Assembly (NCBI GenBank): GCA_023386315.1
Contig: JAEWJZ010000001.1
Coordinates: 1-64,000, forward strand
DNA from: Bacillota bacterium
GTDB lineage: Bacteria; Bacillota; Clostridia; Lachnospirales; Lachnospiraceae
Direction: 5' to 3'
Length of the DNA stretch: 64,000 bases
The notes beneath the pieces were generated by a model, which saw nothing but the letters and a program-made list of their open reading frames with translations, did no database searches and was not told the origin of the DNA. Each line of letters begins with the position of its first letter. Positions within the stretch are counted from its first letter, which is position 1. Below, one piece after another: positions 38,578 to 64,000 of this stretch. Both the position numbers and the translations under genes were made by a program.

Positions 38578-38665
38578 GTGCTCAGAATGGAAATGATAAA
38601 AAAATTAGGACATAAATAACTGTTAAATATAGAATAAAATATGGATTTTTCAGAAATTTAGTTGT

Positions 38666-38703: not shown

Positions 38704-39339
38704 ATGAGTGAAAACTTAGTGATTGCAATTGGAAGACAATGCGGAAGTTCTGGTAAGATCATTGGTGAGAAGCTGGCAAAAGCGCTTGGTATCAAGTGCT
38801 ATGATAAAGAATTACTGGCTCTGGCTGCGAAAAACAGTGGTTTATGTGAGGAGTTATTTCAAAGTCATGATGAAAAGCCAACCAACAGCTTTTTATATTC
38901 TCTTGTTATGGATACATATAATGTTGGACTATCAAGTTCCGGTTATATGGATATGCCCATTAATCACAAGATTTTCCTGGCACAGTTTGATACAATTAAG
39001 AAACTGGCAGAGGAAGAGTCCTGTGTCATTGTAGGAAGGTGCGCGGACTACGCCCTGGCAGATAATCCCAATCTTGTTTCGGTATTTATTACTGCGGATG
39101 ATAAGGATAAGATCCAGTCTTTAAAAGAACTGTATCAGATTGACGATGCAAAGGCGAAGGAAGTCATGGTGAAAACAGATAAAAAGCGTTCCAGCTATTA
39201 TAACTACTATTCCAATAAAAAGTGGGGAGATGTAAGAAGCTATGATTTATGCATCAACCGAAGCCGGGTTGGAGCAGATGGAGCAGTCGATATCATACTC
39301 AAGTATATTGATGTGAAAATGCAGGAAAAAAAATTATAA
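38704..39339 (+). CDS. Cytidylate kinase-like family protein
   Basis: A 211-residue P-loop kinase-like protein of the AAA/cytidylate kinase-like family common in Clostridia. Its start, LVIAIGRQCGSSGKIIGEKLA, replaces the usual GxxGxGK loop by GRQCGSSGK. A later CVIVGRCADYALAD segment and the C-terminal YDLCINRSRVGADGAVDII are characteristic. Substrate unknown; it is distinct from the true Cmk. ATG 38704 follows AAGGAGTG; an in-frame ATG at 38662 would overlap the promoter region. Confidence 0.8.
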   Translation: MSENLVIAIGRQCGSSGKIIGEKLAKALGIKCYDKELLALAAKNSGLCEELFQSHDEKPTNSFLYSLVMDTYNVGLSSSGYMDMPINHKIFLAQFDTIKKLAEEESCVIVGRCADYALADNPNLVSVFITADDKDKIQSLKELYQIDDAKAKEVMVKTDKKRSSYYNYYSNKKWGDVRSYDLCINRSRVGADGAVDIILKYIDVKMQEKKL

Positions 39340-39454: not shown

Positions 39455-40390
39455 ATGACGGAAAAGAACCTGGGGTATGGAAATTTATATCAGAAAACAG
39501 GGGTAGCTAAGAGCATGCTGGCTCTTGACTTAATGTCAAGAGATACAGGAGAGAGGCTTCTTCCTATATCAGAGTATCAGGAAAAATTTGGAGTTTCCCG
39601 GGGAACTATACAGAATGCTTTTGCCTGTTTAAAGGAGAGCAATGCAGTGGTTTTGGAAAACCACGGACACTAGGGTACTTATATCATGTCACTGGATAAT
39701 AAGAAATTACAAGAGCATTGTATGCCCAGGGGGATTCTTGGCATTATGCCGCTGCCGTATTCGCTGACGTATGAAGCATTGGCTACTGCCATGTATGAAC
39801 AGTTTTCTTCTTTGAACTTTAACATGGCTTATGCAAGAGGCGCAGTAGGACGTATAGAACTGGTGGAATCCGGAACTTATCATTTTGCAATATGCTCCCA
39901 GTTTGCTGCAGAGCAATCCATAAAAGAAGGAAAGCAGATTGAAATAGCAATGAATTTTGGTCCTGGAAGCTTTCTTTCCAGACATGTGCTGCTTTTGGCA
40001 GATTCCAGATTTGACAGCATTCAGGATGGGATGAGGGTGGCTTATGACAGCAATTCCCTTGACCAGAGCTACATCACAAGAAATATCATTCATGGCCGGG
40101 ACGTAACCCTGGTTCCGATCAGAACACAACAGACTGTAACTGCTTTAAAAGAAGGAATCATCGATGCCGGAGTTTGGAATTATGATGACATACTGGAAAA
40201 TAAACATGACTCTGTTAAAGTGGCATTTTTAGATGATTCCGATTATAATAATCTGTTTTCTACCGCAGTTCTGGTAACTGGAAAAGAAGAAAAATGTCTG
40301 AAAGCAATGCTGCTGAAATATATTAATGCATCACAGACAATGACTATTATACGTGATGTAAGAGAAAAGATAAGAGAACCCTATTTTTAA
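39455..40390 (+). pseudogene. yhfZ: YhfZ-like regulator split by an in-frame amber codon
   Basis: Residues 1-72 form a winged helix DNA-binding domain (LLPISEYQEKFGVSRGTIQNA). An in-frame TAG at 39671-39673 follows (NHGH stop GTYIMSLDNK). Reading continues without any frame change for another 238 codons, with ILGIMPLPYSLTYEALATAM and AVWNYDD-like features of the YhfZ effector domain (GVWNYDDIL here). Read through the amber, the product would be about 311 residues, close to the family's usual 300. TAG ends many other genes in this window, so general recoding is unlikely. Re-initiation at ATG 39686 would give two separate chains; AGGG lies upstream. It may instead be a true inactivation or a sequencing error. 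Confidence 0.8.
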
Positions 40391-40446
40391 TTGGGTTTTT
40401 CATATAGCAATGTACAAAATAATGTATATTAGACTTGGGGGAAATT

Positions 40447-40818
40447 ATGGATTTAAATGAACTTTTGATGGAGCGTCTAAACATTCTGGAAGAGAATCAT
40501 GTAATTAGTAATGAAGCAGGCAATTTCTCTAAAAAAGCTGTCATGCTTATACTGTCGGAAATACCTGATTTAGAAGAAACGAAAGCGGTGATGTTCATTA
40601 CACATCTGGCTATGGCAGGACAGAGAATATTGGATGGTGAGAATGAAATTCCTTTGGACACGCTGGTTCTTAATAGTGTTATGGGAGAACCTGTTTATAA
40701 ACAGGCACAGGCACTAAGGGATGAACTCTTACAGGAAACAGATATTCAGTTCCCGCAATCAGAAAAGGATTTTTTGACCGTCCATTTGTGTAATTTACTT
40801 ACATATCAGGGGTATTAA
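40447..40818 (+). CDS. yhfY: PRD domain protein, YhfY-like
   Basis: A 123-residue helical protein resembling a stand-alone PTS regulation domain, as in YhfY: LMERLNILEENHVISNEAG near the start, then MFITHLAMAGQRILDGE with the conserved His, and EKDFLTVHLCNLL at the end with the second. It has no DNA-binding or EII part of its own and could act as a signal-receiving partner of the YhfZ-like regulator (inference). ATG 40447 follows GGGGGA; an in-frame TTG at 40435 is less likely. Confidence 0.7.
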   Translation: MDLNELLMERLNILEENHVISNEAGNFSKKAVMLILSEIPDLEETKAVMFITHLAMAGQRILDGENEIPLDTLVLNSVMGEPVYKQAQALRDELLQETDIQFPQSEKDFLTVHLCNLLTYQGY

Positions 40819-40864
40819 TGCAAAAGTGCATTTATATATAAAGGAGAAAAAAGGAGGCAGCAAA

Positions 40865-41233
40865 ATGAAAATTGTGGTCGGGGGCCAGATTGACAAGGAA
40901 GAAATCGCCAGGCTTGTGAGCCGGCTAATGAACGGAAAGGCTGAAATCGAGATCAAGGGGGATCTTGATGGGGCGATGGGAATTAAGGAAGGGAAATACG
41001 ATTATTATGTAGGGGCTTGTAATACAGGCGGAGGTGGAGCACTTGCAATGGCTCTGGCGCTGCTGGGTTCTAAAGCCTGCTCCACTATTTCCATGCCGGG
41101 TCAGATTAAAAGCGGGGAGTTTATAAGAGAAGAGGTTAATAAAGGAAAAAAGGCTTTTGGCTTTACAGCGCAGCATAAAGAAGAAGTTCTTCCTGTCCTG
41201 TTAAAGGCGATTTGTGAGAAAGAGGGGGTATAA
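40865..41233 (+). CDS. yhfU: DUF2620 protein, YhfU-like
   Basis: A 122-residue protein of the DUF2620/YhfU family: MKIVVGGQIDKEEIARLV, a central YDYYVGACNTGGGGALAMALALLG glycine-rich segment and the end GKKAFGFTAQHKEEVLPVLLKAI. Size and fold pattern resemble small EIIB-like subunits, but no catalytic Cys-loop typical of EIIB is apparent. ATG 40865 follows AAGGAGGC. It precedes the YhfT membrane protein, as its counterpart does in the enterobacterial cluster, so it may be a cytosolic partner of the transporter (inference). Confidence 0.75.
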   Translation: MKIVVGGQIDKEEIARLVSRLMNGKAEIEIKGDLDGAMGIKEGKYDYYVGACNTGGGGALAMALALLGSKACSTISMPGQIKSGEFIREEVNKGKKAFGFTAQHKEEVLPVLLKAICEKEGV

Positions 41234-41237
41234 AAAT

Positions 41238-42548
41238 ATGAAATATATTGTCATTACATTAATAGGAGCGTTGGCTTCCGTTCTTTCCAACCAGGGAATT
41301 GCAGTATTTAATGACGGCTTTCGTCCAATTGCAGGCCAGTATTTTAACGGGGAGATCAGCCGGAAGGAGTTAGCTGCCATGAGCTTTGCCATCAGCTTTG
41401 GATTGGTGATCGGCTTTGGCATTCCCACTTCCATAGCAGCAAGTATTATACTAATTCACTGTTTACTGCTGACAACAGATATGATTGGTTCCTTTTGTAA
41501 TAACAGCAGAAACGGAATGATATTGTCGGCTGCAATCGGAGCCGTATATGGTGCTGCGATTCTGGCAGGACTTGAATTTATAGTAAAACTATTTGGTTAT
41601 CTGCCATACAACTTTACAAGTGATTTAGGAAGTGTATCTGGTTACATAACAGTTGCATTTGCCATATTTCCAGCGGTTGGTATAGCTTATCAGCACGGTT
41701 TTAAGAAAGGAATGGCGGCTGGTGGTGTCACGATTCTGGTTTATTATCTGATTAAGAAATTTGGAGTTTTCGCTCTTGGAGCAGGTAAGGTAACTTTAAA
41801 CGCAGAAGGTATGGCAATGCTGGCAGGAATGATACTGATGATTGTTTATGCCGCTCAGCGAAAAGGAACAGAGAATACCAATGAGGTCCTTACTCAGGGA
41901 TTTGAAGGCAATATTCTCCGGATTCGCAAGAAATGGCTGCTGCTGGCAATTATGGGCGGACTTCTTGCGGCAGGCACCAGTCTTTCCATCGTAGCAGGTG
42001 ATCCGGCTTCATTAGCACTGTTGGCAAAGCAAGAGTATAGCAATGCTGGTTTAACTGCACTTGCAAGAGCAATTGGCTTTATTCCTCTTGTATTTACTAC
42101 TGCCATTGTCACCGGAGTATATGGTGCGGCAGGATGTACGTTTGTTTTTGTGGTTGGATTGTTCTTCCATGGGAATCCCATTGTTGCCTTTATACTTGGA
42201 TTTGCAGTTATGGTTGCTGAAATTTATCTGATCAATATATTTGCAAAAGGCATGGATCGTTTTCCTGGTGTGAAAGACATGGGTGAATATGTAAGAACTT
42301 CCATGAATAAGGTTCTCGAGGTTTCGCTGCTGGCAGGAGGAATCGTGGCAGCTGAAAAGATGTCTGTTTCTGCCTCTGGATACACCGGAATCGGAGCTCT
42401 GTTTGTAATTGGAGCATTTCTGTTAAATAAAAAATCCAAGAAGCCGATCGTGGATCTTGCTGTGGGTCCGGTAGCATGTATTGTATTTGGTGTACTGATG
42501 AATCTGCTTCTTCTGATCGGACTCATCGCAGTTCCAGTTGCGAAATAG
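41238..42548 (+). CDS. yhfT: YhfT family membrane protein, probable transporter
   Basis: A 436-residue polytopic membrane protein with about ten to twelve hydrophobic helices. Family features include the opening LASVLSNQGIAVFNDGFRPI and the later LARAIGFIPLVFTTAIVTGVYGAAGCTFVFVVG, FHGNPIVAFILG and SMNKVLEVSLLAGGIVAAEKM. YhfT proteins have no proven substrate. ATG 41238 follows AGAGGGGG; an in-frame GTG at 41214 overlaps yhfU. It is the only transporter-like gene in the operon and so is the best candidate for substrate uptake (inference). Confidence 0.85.
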   Translation: MKYIVITLIGALASVLSNQGIAVFNDGFRPIAGQYFNGEISRKELAAMSFAISFGLVIGFGIPTSIAASIILIHCLLLTTDMIGSFCNNSRNGMILSAAIGAVYGAAILAGLEFIVKLFGYLPYNFTSDLGSVSGYITVAFAIFPAVGIAYQHGFKKGMAAGGVTILVYYLIKKFGVFALGAGKVTLNAEGMAMLAGMILMIVYAAQRKGTENTNEVLTQGFEGNILRIRKKWLLLAIMGGLLAAGTSLSIVAGDPASLALLAKQEYSNAGLTALARAIGFIPLVFTTAIVTGVYGAAGCTFVFVVGLFFHGNPIVAFILGFAVMVAEIYLINIFAKGMDRFPGVKDMGEYVRTSMNKVLEVSLLAGGIVAAEKMSVSASGYTGIGALFVIGAFLLNKKSKKPIVDLAVGPVACIVFGVLMNLLLLIGLIAVPVAK

Positions 42549-42561
42549 CAGAGGATACCCA

Positions 42562-43551
42562 ATGGAAAAGATTGAGAGTTATGCAAAAAAGACATTTCTT
42601 GCACTGAAAGATCCCTATCATACCGTTGTTTCTGTTAGGCCAGGCATTATTGACAGGGTATCTTCTTTTTTGGAAAAACAGGGTACCGTCTGGTACACAG
42701 GAATTAAGAATACAGATGCCATACCAGCAGAACTGAAAGAACGGCTGGAGAAAAGCGGTTTTCTGATTCACACAACGGACAAAATGGCTTTAGGAGGAAG
42801 AGCAGTTGACTTACAGCTTGTTAATCCCATCACTGGCAATTGGATGACCGGTTCCAGCAGCGGTACGGCCTTAAATGTATTCTATGGAATTAATGATGCA
42901 GGTATCGGAACGGATGGCGGGGGCAGTGTGCTGGCCCCGGCCGCCGCGCTCAATCTTTATGGATTTATATCCCCCATGATAGAACAGGAGAAAATGAATC
43001 AGTATCATAGGATTTCAACAGATGGGATTGGATTTCAGCCTGCCATCGGCGCAATTACCAGGGACCTTGAAACTATGGAAAAGTTATTAAGTCCCATGTT
43101 TGGATATGACTTATCAGAGTTTAAGCTCCAGGAAAATAATTATAGAATCATTGAGGTGCAGCAATTCGATAACCTGCCGGACATTTATGGGAGCCGGGAG
43201 CTCTTGATTAAATATTTGAAGAATACAGTGAAATCCGGCACTGTCGTTATTTCCACGGAAGGACCGGTGGACGTAAATGCACCTGGTGACAGCATACGTG
43301 GTCATTTTGATGAAGATACCGCCAGATGCCAGGCCCGGTCGGGAAAAGGGCTGATGCGTGTTGTTAATATGAGCGGGAAATCAGCACTGACTGTTCCGGC
43401 AAAAGGGCTTGGCCGCTGTATCGTTCTTATCTGTGAGAGCAGACAGGAGGACATCGCTTATATGTTCCGGAAAGCAAGATTATTTCAGACTGAGCCTTCC
43501 GCTTTAATTCAACGGTATTTTATGAATTTTGATATGTATTTTCAGTCGTAA
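42562..43551 (+). CDS. Amidase-signature family protein
   Basis: A 329-residue protein with the amidase signature: MTGSSSGTALNVFYG followed by GIGTDGGGSVLAPAAALNLYG. These give the cis-Ser of the SSSG loop and the nucleophilic Ser of GTDGGGS; Lys in DKMALGGR (about residue 74) is a possible third member of the Ser-cisSer-Lys triad. It is much shorter than usual amidases (about 450-500 residues), lacking much of the C-terminal part. The E. coli yhf cluster has no such gene as far as I recall, so this may mark a variant pathway that releases or makes an amide. ATG 42562 after AGAGGATA. Confidence 0.75.
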   Translation: MEKIESYAKKTFLALKDPYHTVVSVRPGIIDRVSSFLEKQGTVWYTGIKNTDAIPAELKERLEKSGFLIHTTDKMALGGRAVDLQLVNPITGNWMTGSSSGTALNVFYGINDAGIGTDGGGSVLAPAAALNLYGFISPMIEQEKMNQYHRISTDGIGFQPAIGAITRDLETMEKLLSPMFGYDLSEFKLQENNYRIIEVQQFDNLPDIYGSRELLIKYLKNTVKSGTVVISTEGPVDVNAPGDSIRGHFDEDTARCQARSGKGLMRVVNMSGKSALTVPAKGLGRCIVLICESRQEDIAYMFRKARLFQTEPSALIQRYFMNFDMYFQS

Positions 43552-43566
43552 AATCAGGAGGAGAAT

Positions 43567-44436
43567 ATGAAAAAAGGATATACCATGATGCATGAACACA
43601 TCACTATAGATTTATCCGGGATCAAGAACGATGAAGACTGCCGTCTGGATTGTTTTGAAGAGACAGAAAAAGAACTCTGCCGCCTGTACGAGCTTGGGGT
43701 GAGGCGAATTCTGGATGTGACCAATATCGGCATGGGACGAAATCCTCAGTACTGTCTTCGCATGGAAAAGAAGACCGGAATTCAGATTCTTTCAGCGACA
43801 GGATTTTATAAGGAACCGTTTCTTCCGGAGTTTGTATATAACATGTCTGTAAGAAAACTGGCGGAACTTGCTATAAAAGAAATCTTGGAAGGGATTGAAA
43901 ATACAGGCATTAAGGCAAGTGTTATTGGAGAATTCGGCACCAGTAAGGATACCTTTACGGAAATGGAAAAAAAGGTTTTCGATTCCATGGCTCTTGCAGC
44001 CGTACAAACCGGTGCGGTTGTTACTACCCATACCACCCTTGGAACCATGGCTCTGGAGCAGGCAAAATATTTAAAATCCGAAGGAGTAAAGCCGGAGAAA
44101 ATCATTATCGGACATTTAGATCTTTCACAAAATGCGGATTACATTCTTTCTATATTAAAGGAAGGAGTAAATATCGGGTTCGATACGGTAGGAAAAAATA
44201 ATTACTGTCCGGATTCGTTTCGTGCCGGAACGCTGAAACAAATTGCTGAAGAAGGATATCTTGAACAGGTAGTGTTGTCCATGGATATTACCAGAAAGTC
44301 ACATCTGAGGAAGTGGGGAGGACCCGGCTATGCTTATCTGTTTGAAACATTTCTTCCCATGCTTCTGGAATACGGGTTGTCTGAGGAACAGATTGAACTG
44401 TTAATGATAGATAATCCAGACAGGATACTTGAATAG
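43567..44436 (+). CDS. php: Phosphotriesterase homology protein
   Basis: A 289-residue TIM-barrel metallohydrolase of the phosphotriesterase-homology family. Metal ligands: MMHEH near the start (His-X-His), VIGEFGTSKDTF where Glu stands in place of the carbamylated Lys of true phosphotriesterases, then TTHTT, IGHLDL, and the C-terminal SMDITRKSHLRKWGG with the catalytic Asp. This pattern matches E. coli Php (YhfV). The physiological substrate is unknown. ATG 43567 follows AGGAGG. Confidence 0.88.
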   Translation: MKKGYTMMHEHITIDLSGIKNDEDCRLDCFEETEKELCRLYELGVRRILDVTNIGMGRNPQYCLRMEKKTGIQILSATGFYKEPFLPEFVYNMSVRKLAELAIKEILEGIENTGIKASVIGEFGTSKDTFTEMEKKVFDSMALAAVQTGAVVTTHTTLGTMALEQAKYLKSEGVKPEKIIIGHLDLSQNADYILSILKEGVNIGFDTVGKNNYCPDSFRAGTLKQIAEEGYLEQVVLSMDITRKSHLRKWGGPGYAYLFETFLPMLLEYGLSEEQIELLMIDNPDRILE

Positions 44437-44445
44437 GAGGCAAAA

Positions 44446-45540
44446 ATGAATACCAGTCCACTTAACAGCTTATCAGTGCAGGAAGCAGCCAGCCTGCAAT
44501 TTAAAATCATAGACTGCATTACGAAGAGATTTGAAGGTCATGAGATATTGACCCGGGGAGATTTAGGGGTAATTCCGGGTTTCAATAAACCTGTCATCAC
44601 ACAGAAAGCAGAACAGGTAATTGCAGATATTTTTGATGCAGAAGCCTGCATTCTGGTGAGAGGGGCGGGAACCGGCGCCATCCGTCTCGGACTTCACAGT
44701 ATGCTAAAACCAGGTGAAAAAATACTGGTCCATAAAGCGCCTGTCTACAATACTACCGCAGTTTCCATGGAAATGATGAACATTTCCGGGGTAGAGGCAG
44801 ATTATAATGACTTAAGCGATGTAAAACGGGTGTTGATCAACAACACGGATATAAAAGGTGCACTCATCCAGTATACCAGACAGAAACCGGAGGATGCCTA
44901 TGATATGGCACAGGTGGTAAAAACAATTAAGGAAAACAGCAGACTGCCTGTACTCACTGATGACAATTATGCCGTTATGAAAGTCAGCCGTATAGGAATT
45001 CAGTGCGGAGCTGATCTTTCGTGCTTTTCAGCTTTTAAGCTTCTGGGACCGGAAGGTGTGGGCGTAATTGTCGGAAAGGCAGTTTATATTCAAAAGCTGG
45101 TGAACGAAAATTATTCCGGAGGTATGCAGGTGCAGGGACATGAGGCACTTGATGTACTTCGTGGCTTTGCATATGCGCCGGTGGCACTTGCCATACAGGC
45201 GGAGGTAAACGATGAATGCGTAAAACGGCTGAATTCGGGTGAGATACCCTGCGTAAAACAGGCATTTCTTGCAAATGCACAGTCAAAGGTTCTTCTGGTG
45301 GAATTTAAAGAAGACATCGCTGAGAAAGTTCTTAAGGAAGCAGAAAAATTAGGAGCAGCGCCTAATCCAGTGGGAGCTGAGTCTAAATATGAGATCGTAC
45401 CGATGTTTTACCGGATATCAGGAACGTTCCAAAGTGCAGATCCGGCACTTAAGAACCGCATGATTCGTGTTAATCCCATGCGTTCAGGAGCTGATACCAT
45501 TTTACGTATATTAAAAGAAGCTGCAGAAAGAGTGATATAG
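44446..45540 (+). CDS. yhfS: YhfS-like PLP-dependent aminotransferase-fold protein
   Basis: A 364-residue fold-type I PLP protein. The cofactor lysine is in SCFSAFKLLGPEGVGVIVGK (about residue 195-200) and the phosphate-binding loop is in LVRGAGTGAIRLGLHSML. The LTDDNYAVMKV segment supplies the Asp contacting the pyridine nitrogen. It matches the YhfS family by overall features and operon position; reaction type (transaminase, lyase or other) cannot be told. ATG 44446 follows AGGAGGC. The next gene starts immediately after its stop codon. Confidence 0.82.
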   Translation: MNTSPLNSLSVQEAASLQFKIIDCITKRFEGHEILTRGDLGVIPGFNKPVITQKAEQVIADIFDAEACILVRGAGTGAIRLGLHSMLKPGEKILVHKAPVYNTTAVSMEMMNISGVEADYNDLSDVKRVLINNTDIKGALIQYTRQKPEDAYDMAQVVKTIKENSRLPVLTDDNYAVMKVSRIGIQCGADLSCFSAFKLLGPEGVGVIVGKAVYIQKLVNENYSGGMQVQGHEALDVLRGFAYAPVALAIQAEVNDECVKRLNSGEIPCVKQAFLANAQSKVLLVEFKEDIAEKVLKEAEKLGAAPNPVGAESKYEIVPMFYRISGTFQSADPALKNRMIRVNPMRSGADTILRILKEAAERVI

Positions 45541-46698
45541 ATGTTTTTAGCGCAGACAGTAAAAAGAAACAGGGAATTAATCGAGGCTTCCTTTCAAATG
45601 CATCAAAGCGGACTCATAGAGCCGGATTCCTATGTGATAGACGTGGATACATTTCTGGAAAATGCATCTCTGATGCTCAAGGAAGCCAAAAGAATGGGGA
45701 TCCGGCTGTTTTTTATGCTTAAGCAGATCGGCAGGAATCCGTATCTTGCAGGGAAACTGGTGGAACTAGGATTTGAAGGAGCAGTTGCAGTTGATTATAG
45801 GGAAGCCAGAATCATGATGAATCATCGGATTCCCATAGCCAATATTGGTCATCTCGTACAAATACCCGACTCCCAGATTGAAGAGTTTGTGGCTTACCGC
45901 CCTAAGATGATCACTGTATATTCGGAAGAAAAAATCAGCCGGATACATCAGGCAGCTAAGAAAATGGGAGTCATTCAGGATGTGATTTTACGCGTTTACA
46001 ATGATTCTGATATGATATACTCCGGTCAGACGGCAGGATTTCATGTGGGAATATTAGAAGCGCTGACAGCACGGATAAAACTTATGTATCCCTGCGTTAA
46101 TATTGCAGGTGTAACTTCATTTCCCTGTTTTCTATATGATGAAGCTGCCGGTGATCTGATGGCCACCGAGAACATGAACACAGTAAAACAAGCCGTGAAA
46201 ATCCTTGGCAGGAACGGAATTAACTGCAGTATTATTGATACCCCGTCAGGGACCTGTATCCATGCTTTGAAAAAAATAAAGGAGCAGGGCGGAAACTGCG
46301 GAGAACCAGGTCATGGGCTTTCAGGAACAACGCCAATGCATGCAGTAAAGATGATGCCGGAGATTCCGTGTGTAACATACATAAGTGAAGTATCCCATAA
46401 TTTCATGGGCCGGGCTTATTGTTATGGAGGAGGTTATTATAGGCGCTCTCATCTGATGAAAGCATTGGTTGGCATATCATTTGAAAAATCCGATGAATTA
46501 GGAGTAATACCTCCATCTGATGAGAGTATTGATTATTATATTGGCCTGGATAAGGAGTGCGCAGTGGGCGATACTGTTGTGATGGCTTTCCGTTTCCAGA
46601 TATTTGTTACCAGATCTGATGTTGTGCTGGTAGAAGGATTAAAGGAGAAAAAGCCGTATATTGCTGGGATTTATAATAGCATGGGGGCAAAAAAATGA
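45541..46698 (+). CDS. yhfX: YhfX-like alanine racemase-fold PLP protein
   Basis: A 385-residue fold-type III PLP protein. The PLP lysine is in IRLFFMLKQIGRNPYLAG (about residue 60), at the same place as in alanine racemase and D-Thr aldolase-like enzymes. The CYGGGYYRRSHLMKALVG and C-terminal beta domain (DTVVMAFRFQIFVTRSDVVLV) fit the family. It may racemise or decarboxylate an amino compound; unproven. It begins right after the yhfS stop and overlaps yhfW by four bases. Confidence 0.83.
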   Translation: MFLAQTVKRNRELIEASFQMHQSGLIEPDSYVIDVDTFLENASLMLKEAKRMGIRLFFMLKQIGRNPYLAGKLVELGFEGAVAVDYREARIMMNHRIPIANIGHLVQIPDSQIEEFVAYRPKMITVYSEEKISRIHQAAKKMGVIQDVILRVYNDSDMIYSGQTAGFHVGILEALTARIKLMYPCVNIAGVTSFPCFLYDEAAGDLMATENMNTVKQAVKILGRNGINCSIIDTPSGTCIHALKKIKEQGGNCGEPGHGLSGTTPMHAVKMMPEIPCVTYISEVSHNFMGRAYCYGGGYYRRSHLMKALVGISFEKSDELGVIPPSDESIDYYIGLDKECAVGDTVVMAFRFQIFVTRSDVVLVEGLKEKKPYIAGIYNSMGAKK

Positions 46699-47909
46699 AA
46701 AAAAGGTTTATTATCATTGTATTAGATGGATTCGGCATTGGAGCCATGACGGATGCAGTCAAGGTCCGCCCGGGGGATGAGAGGGCCAATACTTTAAAAA
46801 GCATCTTAAAGGATTACCCGGATTTAAAGCTCCCGGCTCTTGAATGGCTAGGGCTGATGAATGCTTATGGGGAGGAAAGTGCTTCCATGAAATTCTCTTC
46901 AGAAGCAAATTTCGGAAGCTGCCAGCTTATGCATTTTGGAGCGGATACGTTTATGGGACATCAGGAAATTATGGGGACACTTCCGAAAGAACCCATGATT
47001 CATCCATTTCAGGAGAAAGTGGATGAAATAAAGTATCATCTGGAGACAAATGGGCATGATGTTCAGATCATTGAGAAGCAGGGACTGCGTTACCTTCTCG
47101 TCGATCATTACGTAATGGTTGCAGACAATCTGGAAGCGGATCCTGGCATGTGCTACAATGTAACTGCTCCTTTGGATTTCATTTCTTTTGAGAGAGAGTA
47201 CGCGATTGCTCAAAAGGTGAGGGAAATTGCCTTAGTCGGCCGTGTCATTGTATTTGGCGGGAGAGGAAACACAATGGAGGATATATGGAATGCAGAAGAA
47301 GTGAAGCAGAATCGCTTTATCGGCATATCCTCAGTTAAGTCAAAATCCTACGAACGCGGATATCAATGCAGACATTTGGGATATGGAGTGGATCAGAACG
47401 TACAGGTTCCTACGATTCTGACAAAAGCGGGATACTCCTGTACACTGATCGGTAAGGTGGCAGACATTGTTGCAAATGACAAGGGATTAAGTATTTCCTG
47501 CGTACCCACAAAAGAGGTTATGGATATAACAATTCGTGAGACGAAATTAATGAATCAGGGATTTATCTGTACCAATGTACAGGAAACAGATCTGGCCGGA
47601 CATTCTCAGTCTTCCAGAATTTATAAAGAAATTTTGGAGACCGCTGACAGGGGAATTGCCGAATTACTTTCGGAACTGACTTCGGAAGATATACTGGTAG
47701 TGATGGCTGACCACGGAAATGATCCTGATATCGGTCACAGCAGGCATACAAGAGAATGTGTTCCTCTTTTGATCTATAAAAAGGGCGTAACAGGCAGAAA
47801 TATCGGGCGAAGAAAAAGCCTTTCAGACGCAGGTGCTTCTGTCTGTGATTATTTTAATACAATGAAACCGCAAAATGGAGAATCCTTTCTTAAATATCTA
47901 AATAATTAA
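46695..47909 (+). CDS. yhfW: YhfW-like phosphopentomutase-family protein
   Basis: A 404-residue alkaline-phosphatase-superfamily enzyme resembling phosphopentomutase. Metal ligands are visible in LDGFGIGAM (Asp), and the C-terminal VVMADHGNDPDIGHSRHTRECVPLLIY (Asp, His, His). A cap domain occupies about 90-220. At the nucleophile position, where phosphopentomutases have D-T-x-T-G-H-W-E with the second Thr phosphorylated, this protein has DTFMGHQEIMG: Met in place of the catalytic Thr. A standard mutase reaction is therefore doubtful. It is the last gene of the operon. Confidence 0.83.
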   Translation: MKKRFIIIVLDGFGIGAMTDAVKVRPGDERANTLKSILKDYPDLKLPALEWLGLMNAYGEESASMKFSSEANFGSCQLMHFGADTFMGHQEIMGTLPKEPMIHPFQEKVDEIKYHLETNGHDVQIIEKQGLRYLLVDHYVMVADNLEADPGMCYNVTAPLDFISFEREYAIAQKVREIALVGRVIVFGGRGNTMEDIWNAEEVKQNRFIGISSVKSKSYERGYQCRHLGYGVDQNVQVPTILTKAGYSCTLIGKVADIVANDKGLSISCVPTKEVMDITIRETKLMNQGFICTNVQETDLAGHSQSSRIYKEILETADRGIAELLSELTSEDILVVMADHGNDPDIGHSRHTRECVPLLIYKKGVTGRNIGRRKSLSDAGASVCDYFNTMKPQNGESFLKYLNN

Positions 47910-47913
47910 GTAT

Positions 47914-47942
47914 AAAAAAAGGCAGAATGCTCTGCCTTTTTA
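47914..47942. terminator. Bidirectional terminator between yhfW and glmS
   Basis: AAAAGGCAGA pairs with TCTGCCTTTT over the loop ATGC, with an A run before and a T run after. It can serve the converging yhf-like operon and glmS. Confidence 0.9.
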
Positions 47943-47956
47943 ATGATGGTTCCTCA

Positions 47957-49774
47957 CTATTCTACAGTTACTGATTTTGCCAGATTCCTCGGCTGATCCA
48001 CATCTAAATTCTTTCCCACTGATGCGTAATAAGCGATGAGCTGTAAAACCACTGCAATCGGATATACTGTGAAACGGTCTCCGATATCAGGAATATTAAT
48101 CTGGATATCAGCGATGCCGGGCTCTACATTTAAACTTTCCTTTGTAAGAAGAATTACAAAGGCACCTCTTGCTTTTACTTCCCTGATATTGGAAATAGTC
48201 TTTGAAAAAACATTTTCCTGAGTGGCTATGGCAATCACCGGTACATCCTGTGTAATAAGGGCGATGGTTCCATGCTTTAGTTCTCCGGCTGCGTAGGCTT
48301 CCGCATGAATATAGGAAATTTCCTTCAGCTTTAATGCACCCTCAAGAGAAAAGGCGTAATCAAGTCCCCGTCCAATGAAAAATGCATCCGGTTTATTAAT
48401 TAAATGTGTTACCAGCGCTTTCACCGCATCTTTCTTTTCTATCATGGCTTCCATTGCGGGAATGGAATCAAGTAGTTTCTTCATAAAATCTTCCGCTTCC
48501 TCTACGCTGTATTTTCCTCTTACAAGGGCCATACGGCAGCACACCATATAAAGGGCAGCCAGCTGAACGGAATAAGCTTTTGTGCTGGCTACTGCGATTT
48601 CAGGACCTGCATGGGTATAGAGTACATAATCGCTTTCTCTGGCTATGGTAGAGCCCTTAACATTAACAACCGAAAGTGTCTTTGAGCCATAACTTTTTGC
48701 CAGACGAAGTGCAGCCAGGGTATCGATTGTCTCGCCGGACTGGGAGATTATAATAACCAGGGTCCTGTCATTCACCAGGGGATCTTCATACCGGAATTCC
48801 GAAGCGATGGATACAGTGACCGGAATTCGAAGAAGAGGTTCCATTAAGGCTCTTGCAGCCATTCCTGCATGCATGGCAGTGCCGCAGGCAACAATATGAA
48901 CCTGGTCACAGTCCTCAAATACGAAGTCAGGTATCTGATCATCTGTAAAATCAGGCAGGCCTTTTGCAAGGCGTGGTAAAATCGTGTTTTTTAAAGCGTC
49001 CGGCTGTTCATGAATCTCTTTCAGCATAAAATGAGGAAATCCGTTCTTCATGGCAGCATCCATATTCCAGTTCACTTCCAGGATTTCCGGTTCCAGCTCC
49101 TTTAAATCCAGGTCATATAAACGGACTTTGTAGGAGGTGAGTCTTAAGATGTGGTCTTCCGGAACTACAAAATATTGTCTGGTATAAGGAATCAGTGCTG
49201 TTAAATCCGATGCCACAAACGAGCCTGAGTGGGTATATGCAGCCACAAGAGGACTTACATTCCGGATTGCATAGATTTCACCTGGGTGATCCTCAAACAT
49301 CATACAGAAGCTGTAAGACCCCTTTAAATGTGTTACCAGCTCTGCAATGGCTTTTGCAGGGTCTCCGTCATAAAGACTTTCAAGGACCCAGGCTGCCACT
49401 TCGCTGTCTGTTTCGGAAAGCAGCTTTCCTTCCAGGTGAAAATCAGTGGTGAGCTGATGATAGTTTTCAATAATGCCATTGTGAACCAGAATGACACGTC
49501 CTGCTCTGTGGGGGTGGGTATTTTCCGTAGTGACACCGCCGTGTGTCGCCCATCTGGTGTGTCCCAGTCCGCAGTGGGATACCTGGTTTATTTCTTCGCA
49601 GCCCTTTTTTAAATTAGAGACTTTTCCCGTATGACGGACTAAATGGATTCTGGAATTTTCCATGCACAGTGCAATTCCTGCGCTGTCGTATCCGCGGTAT
49701 TCCAACTGGGAGAGTCCTTCCAGCAGTATTTTCTTTGAGTCTAAAGGTCCGGTATATCCAATGATTCCACACAT
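47957..49774 (-). CDS. glmS: Glutamine-fructose-6-phosphate aminotransferase
   Basis: A 605-residue enzyme making glucosamine-6-phosphate, the entry to amino-sugar and peptidoglycan synthesis. The N-terminal glutaminase domain begins MCGIIGYTG with Cys2 as nucleophile (after Met removal), and GHTRWATHGG follows. The isomerase half has two SIS domains: ACGTAMHAGMAAR, SQSGETIDTLAALR, ASTKAYSVQLAAL and the C-terminal DQPRNLAKSVTVE. An AAGGAGAT ribosome binding site precedes ATG. Expression is expected to be controlled by the ribozyme upstream. It stands alone, convergent with the yhf-like operon. Confidence 0.98.
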   Translation of the reverse strand: MCGIIGYTGPLDSKKILLEGLSQLEYRGYDSAGIALCMENSRIHLVRHTGKVSNLKKGCEEINQVSHCGLGHTRWATHGGVTTENTHPHRAGRVILVHNGIIENYHQLTTDFHLEGKLLSETDSEVAAWVLESLYDGDPAKAIAELVTHLKGSYSFCMMFEDHPGEIYAIRNVSPLVAAYTHSGSFVASDLTALIPYTRQYFVVPEDHILRLTSYKVRLYDLDLKELEPEILEVNWNMDAAMKNGFPHFMLKEIHEQPDALKNTILPRLAKGLPDFTDDQIPDFVFEDCDQVHIVACGTAMHAGMAARALMEPLLRIPVTVSIASEFRYEDPLVNDRTLVIIISQSGETIDTLAALRLAKSYGSKTLSVVNVKGSTIARESDYVLYTHAGPEIAVASTKAYSVQLAALYMVCCRMALVRGKYSVEEAEDFMKKLLDSIPAMEAMIEKKDAVKALVTHLINKPDAFFIGRGLDYAFSLEGALKLKEISYIHAEAYAAGELKHGTIALITQDVPVIAIATQENVFSKTISNIREVKARGAFVILLTKESLNVEPGIADIQINIPDIGDRFTVYPIAVVLQLIAYYASVGKNLDVDQPRNLAKSVTVE

Positions 49775-50244: not shown

Positions 50245-51345
50245 ATGGCAAGTCTATCTTTGGTAAATGTATGCAAGACATTTAAAAATGGCCAGGTTGC
50301 GGTGAAAGATTTTAATCTGGATATAAAAGACCAGGAGTTTTTGATCCTGGTGGGTCCCTCAGGCTGCGGAAAATCCACCACTCTGCGGATGATTGCAGGT
50401 CTTGAAGAGATATCTTCCGGGGAGTTATGGATAGACGGATCACTGATGAATCTGACTGCTCCCCAGAAAAGGGATTTATCCATGGTATTTCAGTCCTATG
50501 CTCTTTATCCCCACCTGACTGTTTATGAGAATATGGCATTCAGCTTAAGAGTACGAAATGTTATGAAAACGGAAATTGATAAACGAGTGAGAAAAGCGGC
50601 AGATGTTTTATGCATCAGCCACTTACTGGACCGGAAGCCCCACGCTTTATCCGGCGGACAGAAGCAGAGAGTCGCAATCGGAAGCGCTATAGTCCGTGAG
50701 CCAAAAGCTTATTTAATGGATGAGCCTCTGTCCAATCTGGATGCAAAGCTGAGGACACAGATGCGGGTAGAATTATCCAAGATACACAAAGAGCTGGGAG
50801 CAACCATTATTTACGTAACTCATGACCAGGTGGAGGCCATGACACTGGGAACCAGAATTGTGGTCATGAATTCCGGAGTGATTTTACAGGCGGCCGAGCC
50901 GAAAGTTCTCTATCAAAATCCGGTAAATAAGTTTGTAGCCGGCTTTATCGGCTCCCCTTCCATGAATTTCATTCCCGTCTGGGTGGAGAGGAGAGAAGAC
51001 CGGATCTGTGTGGAATTTTCCAAAAACAGACTGTTTGTAAATGAAGAATGTGCGAAGCGGCTCATTGATGGTGATTACCTGGGCAGAAGAGTATATCTTG
51101 GAATCCGTCCGGAAGATTTACACGAAACCGGATCCAGGGAACAGGAACTTAAATTGAACGTTGAGATAAAGGAGGTTCTGGGATCAGAAATCCTTCTTCA
51201 CGGGAAAATAGGCAGGAATCCGGTCTGCGCAAGACTGAAACCAGATTTTCTGTCAGAAGCCGGAAAAGAAGCTTCCATCTTTGCAGATATGAGCCGGATT
51301 CTGCTGTTTGATATGGATACAGAAGAAAACATATTATACCGTTAA
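50245..51345 (+). CDS. UgpC/MsmK-type ABC transporter ATP-binding protein
   Basis: A 366-residue cytoplasmic ATPase of the CUT1 family of carbohydrate and glycerol-phosphate importers. Walker A GPSGCGKSTT is at about residues 37-46, the signature LSGGQKQRVAIG near 135 and Walker B YLMDEPLSNLDAKLR next; a TOBE domain forms the last 120 residues (YLGIRPEDLHE). It energises the two permeases encoded downstream. A glycerophosphodiesterase gene in the same operon suggests glycerol-3-phosphate or its diesters as substrate (inference). ATG 50245 follows GAAAGGAAG. Confidence 0.9.
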   Translation: MASLSLVNVCKTFKNGQVAVKDFNLDIKDQEFLILVGPSGCGKSTTLRMIAGLEEISSGELWIDGSLMNLTAPQKRDLSMVFQSYALYPHLTVYENMAFSLRVRNVMKTEIDKRVRKAADVLCISHLLDRKPHALSGGQKQRVAIGSAIVREPKAYLMDEPLSNLDAKLRTQMRVELSKIHKELGATIIYVTHDQVEAMTLGTRIVVMNSGVILQAAEPKVLYQNPVNKFVAGFIGSPSMNFIPVWVERREDRICVEFSKNRLFVNEECAKRLIDGDYLGRRVYLGIRPEDLHETGSREQELKLNVEIKEVLGSEILLHGKIGRNPVCARLKPDFLSEAGKEASIFADMSRILLFDMDTEENILYR

Positions 51346-51356
51346 GGAGCAGTCTT

Positions 51357-52223
51357 ATGAAGTTTAAAATAATTACAAGAAATTTAAGTCCCTATGCATA
51401 TATCGCTCCAGCCATGGCAGTTTTTGCAGTTTTTTTATTTTTCCCATTTTTCAAAACAATTTATTTAAGTCTTTTTAAAACCAATAAAATGGGGCAGGCA
51501 AAGCTGTTTGTAGGAGCAGGAAATTATTCCGAGCTTTTAAGCTCCCCATCATTTTTTAACAGTCTTTTTGTAACAGCGGTATTTGTACTGATTGTAGTGA
51601 GTGTCAGCATGCTTCTTGGTCTGATCACGGCTGTACTGTGCAATCAGTCATTTCCGGGTATCCGGATATTCAGTACTGCCTATGCACTTCCAATGGCAAT
51701 AGCTTCAAGCTCCGCTGCCATGATATTTAAAATTATGCTTCATCCGTCTATCGGGATTGTTAATAAGATCCTGGGATTACATATTAACTGGATCAGTGAC
51801 CCAAGGTATGCGCTGGTATGCGTGGCGCTTTTAACTGCATGGCTGAACAGCGGCATTAATTTTCTGTATTTCAGCGCCGGTTTAAGTAATATTGACGAAA
51901 CCATTTATGAACGGGCATCGGTGGACGGTGCGAATTCATTTCAGAAGTTCTTCCGGCTGACTCTGCCCGGGTTGAGCCCGATTCTGTTTTATACTCTGGT
52001 AGTTAATATTATTCAGGCGTTTCAGTCCTTTGGCCAGGTTAAGGTATTAACCATGGGAGGCCCGGGGGAATCAACAAATTTAATTGTTTACTCCATATAC
52101 CGGGATGCATTTTTCAATTACCGTTTCGGCAGTGCGGCAGCCCAGTCTGTAATCCTGTTTATCATTATTATGGTACTGACTTTATGCATGTTTCGTTTGG
52201 AAAAGAAAGGAGTACACTATTGA
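51357..52223 (+). CDS. ABC transporter permease, UgpA-like
   Basis: A 288-residue inner-membrane permease with six hydrophobic helices. The first helix is YIAPAMAVFAVFLFFPFFKTIYL, and the EAA loop (YERASVDGANSFQKFFRLTLPGLSP) is near residue 205. It belongs to the MalF/UgpA class of CUT1 importers. It overlaps the next permease's start (ATG within TGATGG), so the pair is coupled. Confidence 0.9.
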   Translation: MKFKIITRNLSPYAYIAPAMAVFAVFLFFPFFKTIYLSLFKTNKMGQAKLFVGAGNYSELLSSPSFFNSLFVTAVFVLIVVSVSMLLGLITAVLCNQSFPGIRIFSTAYALPMAIASSSAAMIFKIMLHPSIGIVNKILGLHINWISDPRYALVCVALLTAWLNSGINFLYFSAGLSNIDETIYERASVDGANSFQKFFRLTLPGLSPILFYTLVVNIIQAFQSFGQVKVLTMGGPGESTNLIVYSIYRDAFFNYRFGSAAAQSVILFIIIMVLTLCMFRLEKKGVHY

Positions 52224-53131
52224 TGGAATCTGTTATTTCCAGGGCTATGAAAGATACAGGCAGAGAAGAACTTGAGAATCTAAAGAGAGAAGCGTTAAAG
52301 AAAGCTTTGTTTCGCCGCAGAGCCGCTAAGCTGGCCCTTACCGGACTGAATCTGCTTATGTCACTGTTTCTTCTGCTTCCGCTTTTATACGCAGTCAGTA
52401 TTGCGTTAATGCCTTCCAGTGAGCTGTTCACAACGAGTATGAACTTAATACCGGCAACGCCCACACTTGATAATTTTCGTCAGGCAACGGTTAAGATACC
52501 TTTAACCCGTTTTATTATTAATTCATTTATAGTAGCAGGCTGTATCACTGCAGGACAGATCATATCCTGTTCCCTGGCTGCATTTTCCTTTTCCTTTCTG
52601 GATTTTAAAGGTAAAAATCTGCTTTTTATGCTTGTAATGGCAACCATGATGATACCAGGAGAAGCAACGATTATATCTAATTACTTAACCGTAAGCGGGT
52701 TTCAATGGCTTAACAGCTATAAGGTTTTAATTGTTCCTTATCTGACTTCGGCTATGGGAATCTTTTTATTCCGGCAGTTTTATAAATCCTTTCCCATTTC
52801 ATTATATGAGTCGGCCCGGATTGATGGCTGCTCTGACTTAAGATTTATTTACAGCATCCTGATACCCCTTACCAAATCAGCGATAGGTGCCATGGCAGTA
52901 TATACATTTATAAATGCCTGGAATATGTATTTGTGGCCGCTTCTTGTTACAGGTTCCGATAAAATGAGAACGGTTCAGATAGGGATCGGCATGCTGGACA
53001 GCGTGGACTCCCAGTCAATTTCCATGATGATTGCAGGAGTAGTCATGATTATCGTTCCATCGATTTCTGTCTTTATCTTAGGACAGAAACAGCTGATCAG
53101 AGGAATGTTCTCAGGGGCCGTAAAAGGCTGA
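52223..53131 (+). CDS. ABC transporter permease, UgpE-like
   Basis: A 302-residue MalG/UgpE-class permease with six helices and the EAA loop YESARIDGCSDLRFIYSILIPL near residue 210. An additional charged N-terminus of about 35 residues (KDTGREELENLKREALKKALF) precedes the first helix. ATG 52223 overlaps the stop of the previous permease and follows AAAGGAG; an in-frame ATG at 52184 is unlikely. It forms the heterodimeric channel with the UgpA-like protein. Confidence 0.9.
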   Translation: MESVISRAMKDTGREELENLKREALKKALFRRRAAKLALTGLNLLMSLFLLLPLLYAVSIALMPSSELFTTSMNLIPATPTLDNFRQATVKIPLTRFIINSFIVAGCITAGQIISCSLAAFSFSFLDFKGKNLLFMLVMATMMIPGEATIISNYLTVSGFQWLNSYKVLIVPYLTSAMGIFLFRQFYKSFPISLYESARIDGCSDLRFIYSILIPLTKSAIGAMAVYTFINAWNMYLWPLLVTGSDKMRTVQIGIGMLDSVDSQSISMMIAGVVMIIVPSISVFILGQKQLIRGMFSGAVKG

Positions 53132-61690: not shown

Positions 61691-62317
61691 TCAACATGGC
61701 TTCTGATCCTCCATTTCTTCAAAGCTCATCAAAAACGACTTTACATCATCGCATGTCATAAGCCCACTCATGATACAGGCTCCTTTGGCTCCTGCTTTTC
61801 TGACAGAACGGGCATTATTACATTCAATCCCTCCGATCGCGTAAACTGGTACAGATACACTTTTACAGATACACTCCAGGAAGCGGATACCCCGCCCGGG
61901 TAATCCCTTCTTGCAGTCGGTTGCAAAAATATGCCCGGCGATAATATAGGTACAGCCAAGTCTCTCAGCTTCCTTGGCCTCCTCTGCCGAATGACAGGAT
62001 ACACCAATTATTTTAAAGTGGCTCTTCTGTACATCGGTCATTTCCCTCATTTCCGGAAGCGGAAGGTGTATCGCCTCCGCATTCAGCTCTATGGCAGTAT
62101 CAACAAAACTATGAAGTACACATGGAATCTGGTGCTTTGTACAAATTTGAATGACCTGCTTTGCAAGCTTCCTGTATTGTACCTCTGATAAGTCCTTTTC
62201 CCGGAGGATGATACCGGCAGGATGGCTGAGAGCAATTTTTTCTATTCGATGCAAAAAATCTTCTTTACACAAAATCCGGCTGGTAACACAATAAATATTA
62301 AACATAGAGATAATCAT
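61691..62317 (-). CDS. tenI: Thiazole tautomerase TenI-like protein
   Basis: A 208-residue TIM-barrel protein of the ThiE/TenI family. The segment IIAGHIFATDCKKGLPGRG closely resembles TenI of Bacillus (GHVFETDCKKGL), rather than the corresponding P-loop motif of thiamine phosphate synthase ThiE. YAIGGIECNNARSVRKAGAKGACIMSGL follows. TenI isomerises the thiazole tautomer produced by ThiG into its aromatic form before ThiE. Other members are labelled thiamine phosphate synthase, so that alternative remains. It overlaps thiH by 20 bases, consistent with coupled translation. Confidence 0.78.
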   Translation of the reverse strand: MIISMFNIYCVTSRILCKEDFLHRIEKIALSHPAGIILREKDLSEVQYRKLAKQVIQICTKHQIPCVLHSFVDTAIELNAEAIHLPLPEMREMTDVQKSHFKIIGVSCHSAEEAKEAERLGCTYIIAGHIFATDCKKGLPGRGIRFLECICKSVSVPVYAIGGIECNNARSVRKAGAKGACIMSGLMTCDDVKSFLMSFEEMEDQKPC

Positions 62318-63551
62318 TCAAAACGGGCTGCAAGCCTTCTTTAGAAATGTGCTCATACATTTTTTGGAAGCTGCGACTGTCATTAATTTCAAACTGTTCA
62401 TCGCCTTGTGTTCCGTCTGACTCCTTTCCCCTGTATTTGCTTTCGTGATCGCCAATTCCCGTTGAAACACCTGCAGAAACTTTCGTGGCTGCAATTTTTA
62501 CAATACCATTGCGAAAAGCCTCACTCTCACGGGAAGAAACAGTAATTCCCACAAACGGCAGAAAAATGCGGTAAGCACAGATGACCTGACAAAGCTGTTT
62601 TTCACCCACATCCATAGGATTTATTTTCTCGTTATTAATGATGGGGCGAAGTCTGGGGCAGGAGAGGGACATTTCTGCATGCGGGTATTTTCTTTGTAAA
62701 TAATATACGTGAAGTGCGCTTGCAAGTGCATCTGTCCGAAAATCGGAAAGGCCCAGTAATGCAGAAAATCCAACGCCCCGCATACCGCCTCTGAGAGCTC
62801 GTTCCTGTGCATCAAAACGATAAGGCCACACCCGCTTGTGCCCATATAAATGTATGGTTTCGTATTTATCTGCATCATAAGTTTCCTGAAACACCGTTAC
62901 ATAGTCTGCTCCGCATTGGTGAAGATACCGATACTCATCTGTATTTACCGGATATATTTCCAGTCCCACCATGCGGAAGAATCTTCGGGCCAGCTTACAA
63001 GCTTCACCAATATAGGCCACATCACTCTGAGTACGGCTTTCTCCTGTAAGTATCAGGATTTCCTCCATACCGCTGTCTGCAATAATCTTCATTTCATGCT
63101 CAATCTGTTCCATGCTCAGCTTCATACGTCTGATATGGTTATAACAGTTAAATCCGCAGTACACACAGTAGTTTTCACAATAGTTTGCAATATACAGCGG
63201 AGTAAAAAGATAAACTGTATTGCCAAAGTGCCTGCTGGTTTCCAGTCTCGCTTTGCGGGCCAGCTGCTCAAGAAAGGATTCTGCCGCAGGTGATAACAGA
63301 GCTTTGAAATCTTCCAGCGAACAAATCTCATGATCCAATGCTGACATAACATCTTTTGCAGTATACTTAGAGTAGTCATAGGACTTCATCTGAGATATGA
63401 CCTTTTCGCAGATACCGGATTGAATTTGTTCCATTCCAGGCAGATACTCCATGTGATTTTTGCGGCATGACGGATCCGTTTCTAATAGATGTTTTTTCTT
63501 AAGAGCGGCTTCTGACAAATTATCAGAATCAAACAAAAATTTATTTTCCAT
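62298..63551 (-). CDS. thiH: 2-iminoacetate synthase
   Basis: A 417-residue radical SAM enzyme that cleaves tyrosine to dehydroglycine (2-iminoacetate) for the thiamine thiazole ring in anaerobes. The cluster-binding motif CENYCVYCGF (CX3CX2C) is preceded by LFTPLYIANYC. Later segments LTGESRTQSDVAYI and RLRPIINNEK fit ThiH. ATG 63551, six bases after AGGGGG on the minus strand, gives the usual length; an in-frame start at 63659 overlaps thiG and adds 36 unrelated residues. It lies between thiG and tenI in one operon. Confidence 0.95.
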   Translation of the reverse strand: MENKFLFDSDNLSEAALKKKHLLETDPSCRKNHMEYLPGMEQIQSGICEKVISQMKSYDYSKYTAKDVMSALDHEICSLEDFKALLSPAAESFLEQLARKARLETSRHFGNTVYLFTPLYIANYCENYCVYCGFNCYNHIRRMKLSMEQIEHEMKIIADSGMEEILILTGESRTQSDVAYIGEACKLARRFFRMVGLEIYPVNTDEYRYLHQCGADYVTVFQETYDADKYETIHLYGHKRVWPYRFDAQERALRGGMRGVGFSALLGLSDFRTDALASALHVYYLQRKYPHAEMSLSCPRLRPIINNEKINPMDVGEKQLCQVICAYRIFLPFVGITVSSRESEAFRNGIVKIAATKVSAGVSTGIGDHESKYRGKESDGTQGDEQFEINDSRSFQKMYEHISKEGLQPVLNDYLYV

Positions 63552-63561
63552 AATGCACCCC

Positions 63562-64000
63562 CTAATTATGCAGAAAACCGGTAAGAGGGTCAGAGGCAGC
63601 TGCCCCGCGAACAAGAACTCTGCCAAGACCAGAAAGATATGCCTTTCTTCCCGCTTCAATTGCCTGACGAAATGCGGATGCCATCAGAGGCAGGTTCCCG
63701 GCTGTGGCAAGAGCAGTATTAGCCATAATTGCCGCGGCGCCCATTTCCATTGCCTCACAAGCCTGGGAAGGCCGGCCAATGCCGGCATCAACTATGATTG
63801 GAAGATCGATCTCATCTATTAAGATCTGAATAAACTCCCGTGTAGCGAGTCCCTTGTTGGAGCCGATGGGAGACGCAAGCGGCATAATTGCAGCAGCACC
63901 AGCACTCACCAGATCACGAGCTGTATTCAAATCGGGATACATATAAGGCAAGACAACAAATCCTTCGTTTGCAAGAATTTCCGCGGCCTTGATGGTTTCC
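63562..64000 (-). CDS. thiG: Thiazole synthase (partial, cut by window edge)
   Basis: The C-terminal 146 residues of ThiG, open to the right edge. Visible motifs are [73 protein letters not shown] and the tail [15 protein letters not shown], all typical. ThiG joins 2-iminoacetate, deoxyxylulose phosphate and ThiS thiocarboxylate into the thiazole. Its N-terminal part with the catalytic Lys, and any upstream thiS, thiF or TPP riboswitch, lie beyond this window. Confidence 0.95.

Follow-up and report, generated by a model that had tools for sequence, protein, structure and literature searches.

A recurrent yhf-type catabolic cassette with a co-inherited amidase gene in a Lachnospiraceae bacterium

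What does the yhf gene cluster do, and does the amidase gene that accompanies some versions of it belong to its pathway? We addressed these questions at a locus of a Bacillota bacterium of the family Lachnospiraceae, whose nearest named relatives are Lacrimispora and its neighbours. The window, by which we mean the whole stretch of DNA analysed, covers the first 64,000 nucleotides of contig JAEWJZ010000001.1 (assembly GCA_023386315.1), and the cluster occupies positions 39455–47909 on the forward strand. An earlier note on this DNA had read the locus as a variant of the enterobacterial yhfS-yhfZ cluster with an inserted amidase gene, and had considered its function not established; indeed, no assigned or proven pathway for the yhf genes turned up in the literature listings searched. 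The yhf cluster is a real, recurrent catabolic cassette, as seen from its composition, its co-inheritance, its site, and the chain of homology and predicted fold that place one of its proteins. The amidase, for the majority of sampled loci, is a genuine, co-inherited member of this cassette and not an insert.

Composition, recurrence and site of the cassette

All eight yhf families (Z, Y, X, W, php, U, T and S) are contiguous in the window, and Pfam and NCBIfam matches support their assignment as a yhf-type cluster. The regulator yhfZ comes first (YhfZ_C, E = 1.7e-58) and is followed by eight intact, tightly packed genes on the same strand. These are yhfY, a stand-alone PRD domain (40447–40818; PRD, 9.3e-7); yhfU, a DUF2620 protein (40865–41233; 5.2e-42); yhfT, a polytopic membrane protein and probable transporter (41238–42548; 1.5e-141); a short amidase-signature enzyme of 329 residues (42562–43551; Amidase, 3.5e-11); php, a phosphotriesterase homology protein (PHP; 43567–44436; PTE, 3.3e-76); yhfS, a pyridoxal phosphate (PLP) enzyme of fold type I (44446–45540; YhfS-like_C, 1.4e-46); yhfX, a second PLP enzyme (45541–46698; YhfX-like_C, 9.4e-36); and yhfW, a phosphopentomutase-like metalloenzyme (46695–47909; PRK12383 phosphopentomutase, 3e-174). 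In the run from yhfU to yhfW, adjacent genes overlap by no more than 4 bp and no gap exceeds 15 bp; the gaps between yhfZ and yhfY and between yhfY and yhfU measure 56 bp and 46 bp. The nine closely packed genes of the earlier note hold in their calls, order, strand and packing, except that the first, beginning at 39455, is not a single open reading frame (ORF) but is split by a TAG codon.

The Escherichia coli cluster shares eight of the nine families and the yhfU-yhfT and yhfX-yhfW pairs. It differs, as had been noted, in its order (Z-Y-X-W-php-U-T-S) and in having no amidase, which is also missing from the Vibrio loci, and its YhfT is 33–34% identical to that of the window. Solved structures from E. 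coli exist for PHP (1BF6 and 4LEF), YhfS (4J8L) and YhfX (4KBX), the latter two being near relatives of the window's PLP enzymes.

To what extent does this gene set recur? We examined 83 loci, made up of the best 80 of 337 YhfT relatives and three annotated records, a choice that is biased to the relatives nearest to the window's YhfT. In 65 of them at least 1 kb lay beyond both cluster ends (flanked loci), and the remaining 18 were dropped from flank-dependent counts for short flanks. A further 18 loci came from a phylum survey, among which L131, L133 and L134 are duplicates or near duplicates of others. Genomes were taken from an even sample of the phylum (398), from relatives (145) and from the genus (25), and counts of gene order and neighbours consider cluster genes only. 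The genes U, T, php, S, X and W occur all together in 62 of the 65 flanked loci, an association far beyond chance which bears out the expected recurrence and extends across phyla: Cetobacterium somerae, of another phylum, carries the identical nine-gene order on a 705-kb plasmid. There the cluster sits downstream of quinone oxidoreductase and flavocytochrome genes. A yhf cluster is also found on a 244-kb plasmid of Vibrio halioticoli, with yhfS and the amidase not detected in the stretch examined. All nine genes of the window are under constraint, with ratios of nonsynonymous to synonymous substitution (dN/dS) of 0.015–0.164 against L022, L025 and L027; four further loci were too distant for most synonymous estimates.

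The presence of the amidase tracks that of the cluster. Among the 145 relatives it is matched at E ≤ 2.3e-35 in 16 genomes, every one of which has yhfT. It is therefore present in 16 of the 17 yhfT-bearing genomes (G071 is the exception) and in none of the 128 others, where three weak matches were seen (E from 1.6e-5 to 8.2e-4). The co-occurrence, which the earlier note had singled out for checking, gives a Fisher p of 2e-20 in a test that ignores kinship. The gene lies in 52 of the 65 flanked loci, in 34 of the 42 groups that these form at 90% YhfT identity (both states occur in one group), and in 9 of the 13 clusters of the phylum sample; absence from a locus means no phmmer match above 30 bits to the window's amidase, and L030 was counted by hand. 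Its place varies. Thirteen loci have the order of the window, Z-Y-U-T-ami-php-S-X-W, and nine have it after yhfW behind a different order; it otherwise follows php (seven loci), follows yhfW (six) or lies divergently upstream (five), with rarer placements making up the rest. The co-occurrence, the 52 loci and the varied positions led us to reject a one-off insertion. We also searched 14 genomes of the 19 amidase-less loci with the amidase of L080, and one has the gene elsewhere, namely G569, which stands behind L087, a locus whose contig ends inside the cluster. In L030 (10001–12307) a single 769-codon ORF spans yhfT and the amidase. Among 7993 scored candidates no further YhfT-amidase fusion was found at E 1e-10, and therefore we rejected it as a Rosetta stone and treat it as an isolated lost stop codon or an error.

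Could the amidase still be a passenger or a decaying copy with no role in the pathway? It is short, was not detected in 13 of the 65 flanked loci, and in the comparison with each of L022, L025 and L027 shows the weakest constraint among the nine genes, with a dN/dS of 0.12–0.16. These values nevertheless lie within purifying selection, and Lys49, Ser98, Ser99 and Ser122 are invariant in 63 amidase sequences. The signature (GSSSG ... GTDGGGS) is present, with Ser122 aligning with the GTDGGGS serine of solved amidases, and these putative catalytic residues would form the Ser-cisSer-Lys triad, in which we take Lys49 to be the lysine. The Pfam match scores 43.3 bits against a cut-off of 27 and covers residues 84–188 only, equivalent to model positions 115–215. 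Matches to the Protein Data Bank (PDB) were obtained at E 3.3e-4, and a profile search of the PDB at E 1e-6 gave none. Together with the distribution over genomes and the several positions across phyla, the constraint makes a passenger role highly improbable.

The cassette also has a defined site. In the window it lies between a cytidylate-kinase-like gene on the forward strand (38704–39339; the ORF opens at 38662 and was tested from 38704) and glmS on the reverse strand (47957–49774), with a flank-to-flank distance of 8624 bp. Ten of the 11 yhf-less genomes of the genus were examined at this site (G012, with a weak best flank match, was left out), and both flanks were recovered in nine, since L176 ended before glmS. 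In seven of the nine the flank ends are 88–145 bp apart; the other two show distances of 1449 and 4467 bp, with no yhf matches in between. The nearest genome compared, G001, has flanking proteins 98–99% identical to those of the window, yet is without yhf genes. YhfT is present in 14 of the 25 genus genomes and scores over the cut-off in 17 of the 145 relatives and 13 of the 398 genomes of the even phylum sample. The cluster is an all-or-none cassette at this site, gained and lost as a unit.

A predicted uptake module and a sibling operon

Within the cassette two adjacencies are nearly always kept while others vary. In all 65 flanked loci yhfU adjoins yhfT, and in 63 of 63 yhfX adjoins yhfW, as both pairs do in the window; L073 has a gene for a hydrolase resembling PBP4B between U and T. 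Among the 18 further loci X and W adjoin in all, and L132 has T before U. These adjacencies suggest that YhfU belongs with the probable transporter, and YhfX with YhfW.

What kind of protein is YhfU? Its predicted fold matches that of RpiB isomerases, and DUF2620 is homologous to the SFCGS family (E = 9.9e-8), through which its cysteine loop was aligned to RpiB. Cys52, Thr54 and Gly55, forming the Cys-x-Thr-Gly loop shared with RpiB and LacAB isomerases, are invariant, Cys52 across 84 sequences. YhfU is shorter than RpiB, and its direct profile match is weak. From this comparison we predict a place for YhfU in the RpiB superfamily, as a shortened member whose glycine-rich loop carries an invariant cysteine. 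For its neighbour YhfY, His53, Arg60 and Glu106 of the PRD are invariant in 74 sequences, and His53, Arg60, Asp71 and Glu106 are common to YhfY and the PRDs of EF_0829 type (seven sequences). A fold search with YhfT, the queries starting at 41235, one residue early, returned no confident match. In L114 and L116 (genome G535) the YhfT match falls in two pieces of a single 498-codon frame, as if an insertion were present.

YhfU could be a genuine RpiB-type isomerase and YhfT an ordinary secondary transporter, with the phosphate arriving with the substrate or coming from a kinase encoded elsewhere. The fold and the cysteine loop are those of such isomerases. However, Leishmania RpiB is reported to need Cys69 and His102 and to bind phosphate through Arg137/141 (PMC4783025), whereas no His or Arg is conserved at 93% or more in the DUF2620 alignment, so that neither the ring-opening His nor the phosphate-anchoring Arg of RpiB has a conserved counterpart in YhfU. 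The near-constant company of yhfU and yhfT also weighs against an isomerase, which would leave unexplained the PRD and the fusion of a PRD to SFCGS described below. We judge this alternative to be rather unlikely.

The fusion belongs to a second operon, of the EF_0829–EF_0839 type, which we followed through eight SFCGS loci. A regulator, a PRD, SFCGS, EF_0832 and EF_0833 are common to all eight, EF_0832 being short in L167; DUF4312 is labelled in seven, and L150 has an unlabelled gene of like size in its place. Genes for DgaE-like, DgaF-like and amidohydrolase proteins are present in seven of the eight (not in L164). This operon shares with yhf a PRD, an RpiB-like cysteine protein and membrane protein(s), as well as, in those seven loci, an amidohydrolase and a PLP enzyme, and a core in which no kinase was found in any of the eight. 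It differs in having two membrane proteins with no detectable homology to YhfT and a 2-keto-3-deoxy-6-phosphogluconate (KDPG)-type aldolase, and no YhfX or YhfW was seen; conversely, EF_0832, EF_0833 and the DgaF aldolase are not found in the window's yhf cluster. In L167 (7634–8383) PRD and SFCGS are fused in one protein of 249 residues (PRD at 28–114, E = 2e-9; SFCGS at 132–244, E = 7.1e-60), which raises the likelihood of a link to the phosphotransferase system (PTS). In L149 (11650–13561) genes for HPr (Pfam, 9.4e-27) and enzyme I (EI; TIGR01417, 1.4e-172) lie directly downstream of the operon, a placement suggesting that the SFCGS system is PTS-coupled; in L168 an EI gene stands past a HAD-type gene and a small opposite-strand ORF. 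Work on Salmonella describes a mannose-family PTS, DgaABCD, which makes D-glucosaminate-6-phosphate, after which DgaE and DgaF act (PMC9529869). Because Salmonella places a PTS ahead of these enzymes, the set of PRD, SFCGS and membrane proteins appears to stand where a PTS would be. With yhf the Salmonella pathway would share uptake by a PTS and, after it, the action of a PLP enzyme upon an amino-sugar acid that has been phosphorylated, but YhfS matches the DgaE family weakly (E = 6.1e-4).

For a coupling of yhf to the PTS the indications are indirect. EI was found in 25 of 26 genomes in a chosen, diverse yhf-bearing set drawn from outside the window's own assembly, the genome of L044 being the one without it. 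It occurs in 17 of 17 yhfT-bearing against 91 of 128 yhfT-less relatives (Fisher p = 0.007, confounded by kinship). HPr was found in 12 of 14 genomes or records, and both misses are plasmid records. No recognised IIA, IIB or IIC domain was found in the nine proteins (Pfam and NCBIfam, E 1e-3), and the examined flanks of yhf loci contain no EI gene. Two observations lower the likelihood of a PTS coupling: L120 places yhfS between U and T (the two adjoin in the other 17 of the 18 further loci), and L165 has sugar-acid-kinase-type and PdxA-type genes ahead of the regulator of its SFCGS operon. It is possible, if somewhat doubtful, that yhf and SFCGS represent two lineages of a PTS class not so far recognised. 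In this boldest reading the PRD would act as histidine phosphocarrier in the role of IIA, an RpiB-derived pseudo-isomerase as cysteine phosphocarrier in the role of IIB, and either YhfT or EF_0832/0833 would supply the membrane unit. Such a class would account for the supply of phosphorylated substrates to a mutase, a lyase and an aldolase in operons whose cores lack a kinase.

The candidate pathway and its substrate

We tentatively propose, with less than even confidence, that the cassette encodes a PTS-coupled importer together with enzymes that would deacylate the compound taken up, one of amino-sugar type, and convert it by PLP chemistry. YhfT, YhfU and YhfY would form a phosphorylating importer fed by EI and HPr, in which the phosphoryl group would pass from HPr-P to the PRD histidine of YhfY, then to the YhfU cysteine and on to the substrate. 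After import the amidase may strip an acyl or amide group and PHP may open a lactone-like ester; YhfX and YhfS would racemise and eliminate at the amino carbon, and YhfW would move the phosphate, letting either an amino-sugar phosphate or its deaminated product enter central metabolism. YhfZ would sense a ligand and regulate the cassette, a function that would be broken in the window strain. The sequence of import, hydrolysis and PLP chemistry sketched in the earlier note gains detail here from the sibling operon and from the predicted membership of YhfU in the RpiB superfamily.

Which compound might this be? Of 98 loci, nine have a same-strand nagB gene no more than 200 bp past the cluster, and one more has it 4.3 kb off. 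Eleven of the 98 encode a PBP4B-like hydrolase of secreted type either inside the cluster or at most 1 kb from it on its own strand, and four encode one farther away or on the opposite strand. In L064 a YdjC gene lies upstream and a PTS IIBC gene downstream. These neighbours perhaps point to amino sugars, which may derive from the cell wall; on the other side, most yhf clusters have neither a nagB nor a PBP4B-like neighbour. We rejected yhf as a substitute for MurQ, which scores over the cut-off in 37 of 40 genomes (28 of 30 with and 9 of 10 without yhf) and was not found in the flanks of the yhf loci examined.

The PBP4B-like neighbours would also suit a cassette that degrades peptide-stem or D-amino-acid compounds from muropeptides, the amidase being a peptidase, YhfX an amino-acid racemase and YhfS a lyase. 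According to PMC5061867, the E. coli and Bacillus subtilis murQ clusters (murQ-murP-yfeW and murQRP-amiE-nagZ-ybbC) contain genes for PBP4B (yfeW) and for AmiE, an N-acetylmuramic acid (MurNAc)-L-Ala amidase. The yhf clusters resemble these murQ operons where a PBP4B-like hydrolase or nagB joins them, and differ in the distribution of MurQ. YhfX, moreover, has an alanine-racemase N-terminal domain. Yet such a pathway does not account for the phosphopentomutase-like YhfW, PHP, nagB or the RpiB-like protein, and we regard it as improbable. Four of the PBP4B-like proteins were tested with NCBIfam, and their best family was PBP4B at scores under its cut-off. That C1 proteins work in the manner of AmiE is presumed here.

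PHP and YhfW bear on a different proposal, in which a pentose- or phosphonate-type phospho-ester would be handled by PHP as a phospho-sugar lactonase and by YhfW as a pentose phosphomutase. YhfW is close to phosphopentomutases and keeps the DTxxGHxE motif, and PHP matches phospho-furanose lactonase at 4.8e-35, although its 121 bits are far under the model cut-off of 630. However, among the best 60 of 128 matches the nearest solved relative of PHP is E. coli PHP (1BF6, E = 4.8e-79), and the presence of an amidase besides two PLP enzymes implies chemistry at nitrogen. A pathway of this type seems to us decidedly improbable.

The interrupted regulator, the surroundings and significance

The regulator yhfZ of the window is interrupted. 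Its N-terminal helix-turn-helix part opens at 39455 and closes at an in-frame TAG at 39671–39673, and the effector domain (YhfZ_C) forms a second ORF at 39686–40390, both on the forward strand. Among the 83 loci yhfZ was found in 78, always intact and at least 285 residues long, and was not found in L053, L055, L057, L058 and L072. Because all 78 are intact, the stop codon is private to the window strain or a sequencing error; because the C-terminal part remains constrained (dN/dS 0.056–0.073 against L022, L025 and L027), the break is recent or, again, an error. In two Lacrimispora loci, L023 and L026, yhfW is read as two ORFs, which may mean that the cluster is decaying in certain strains.

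A likely intrinsic terminator, recognised by eye as a stem and a run of T, lies at 47917–47941 between yhfW and the convergent glmS. Beyond glmS, positions 50245–53131 encode a MalK-type ABC ATPase (Pfam) and two genes resembling sugar ABC permeases; glmS, the ATPase and a permease also adjoin in L023, L026 and L027. A ThiH-like radical-SAM protein, judged from its cysteine motif by eye, is encoded at 62298–63659.

New in this analysis are the placement, by predicted fold, of DUF2620 in the RpiB superfamily, its tie to SFCGS and the PRD, and the amidase as a co-inherited step. Together these make, out of an unassigned gene list, a scheme that experiments could test. Should the phosphotransfer reading prove right, it would add a class to a very well-studied bacterial transport system and give a route to the substrate of the yhf cassette.

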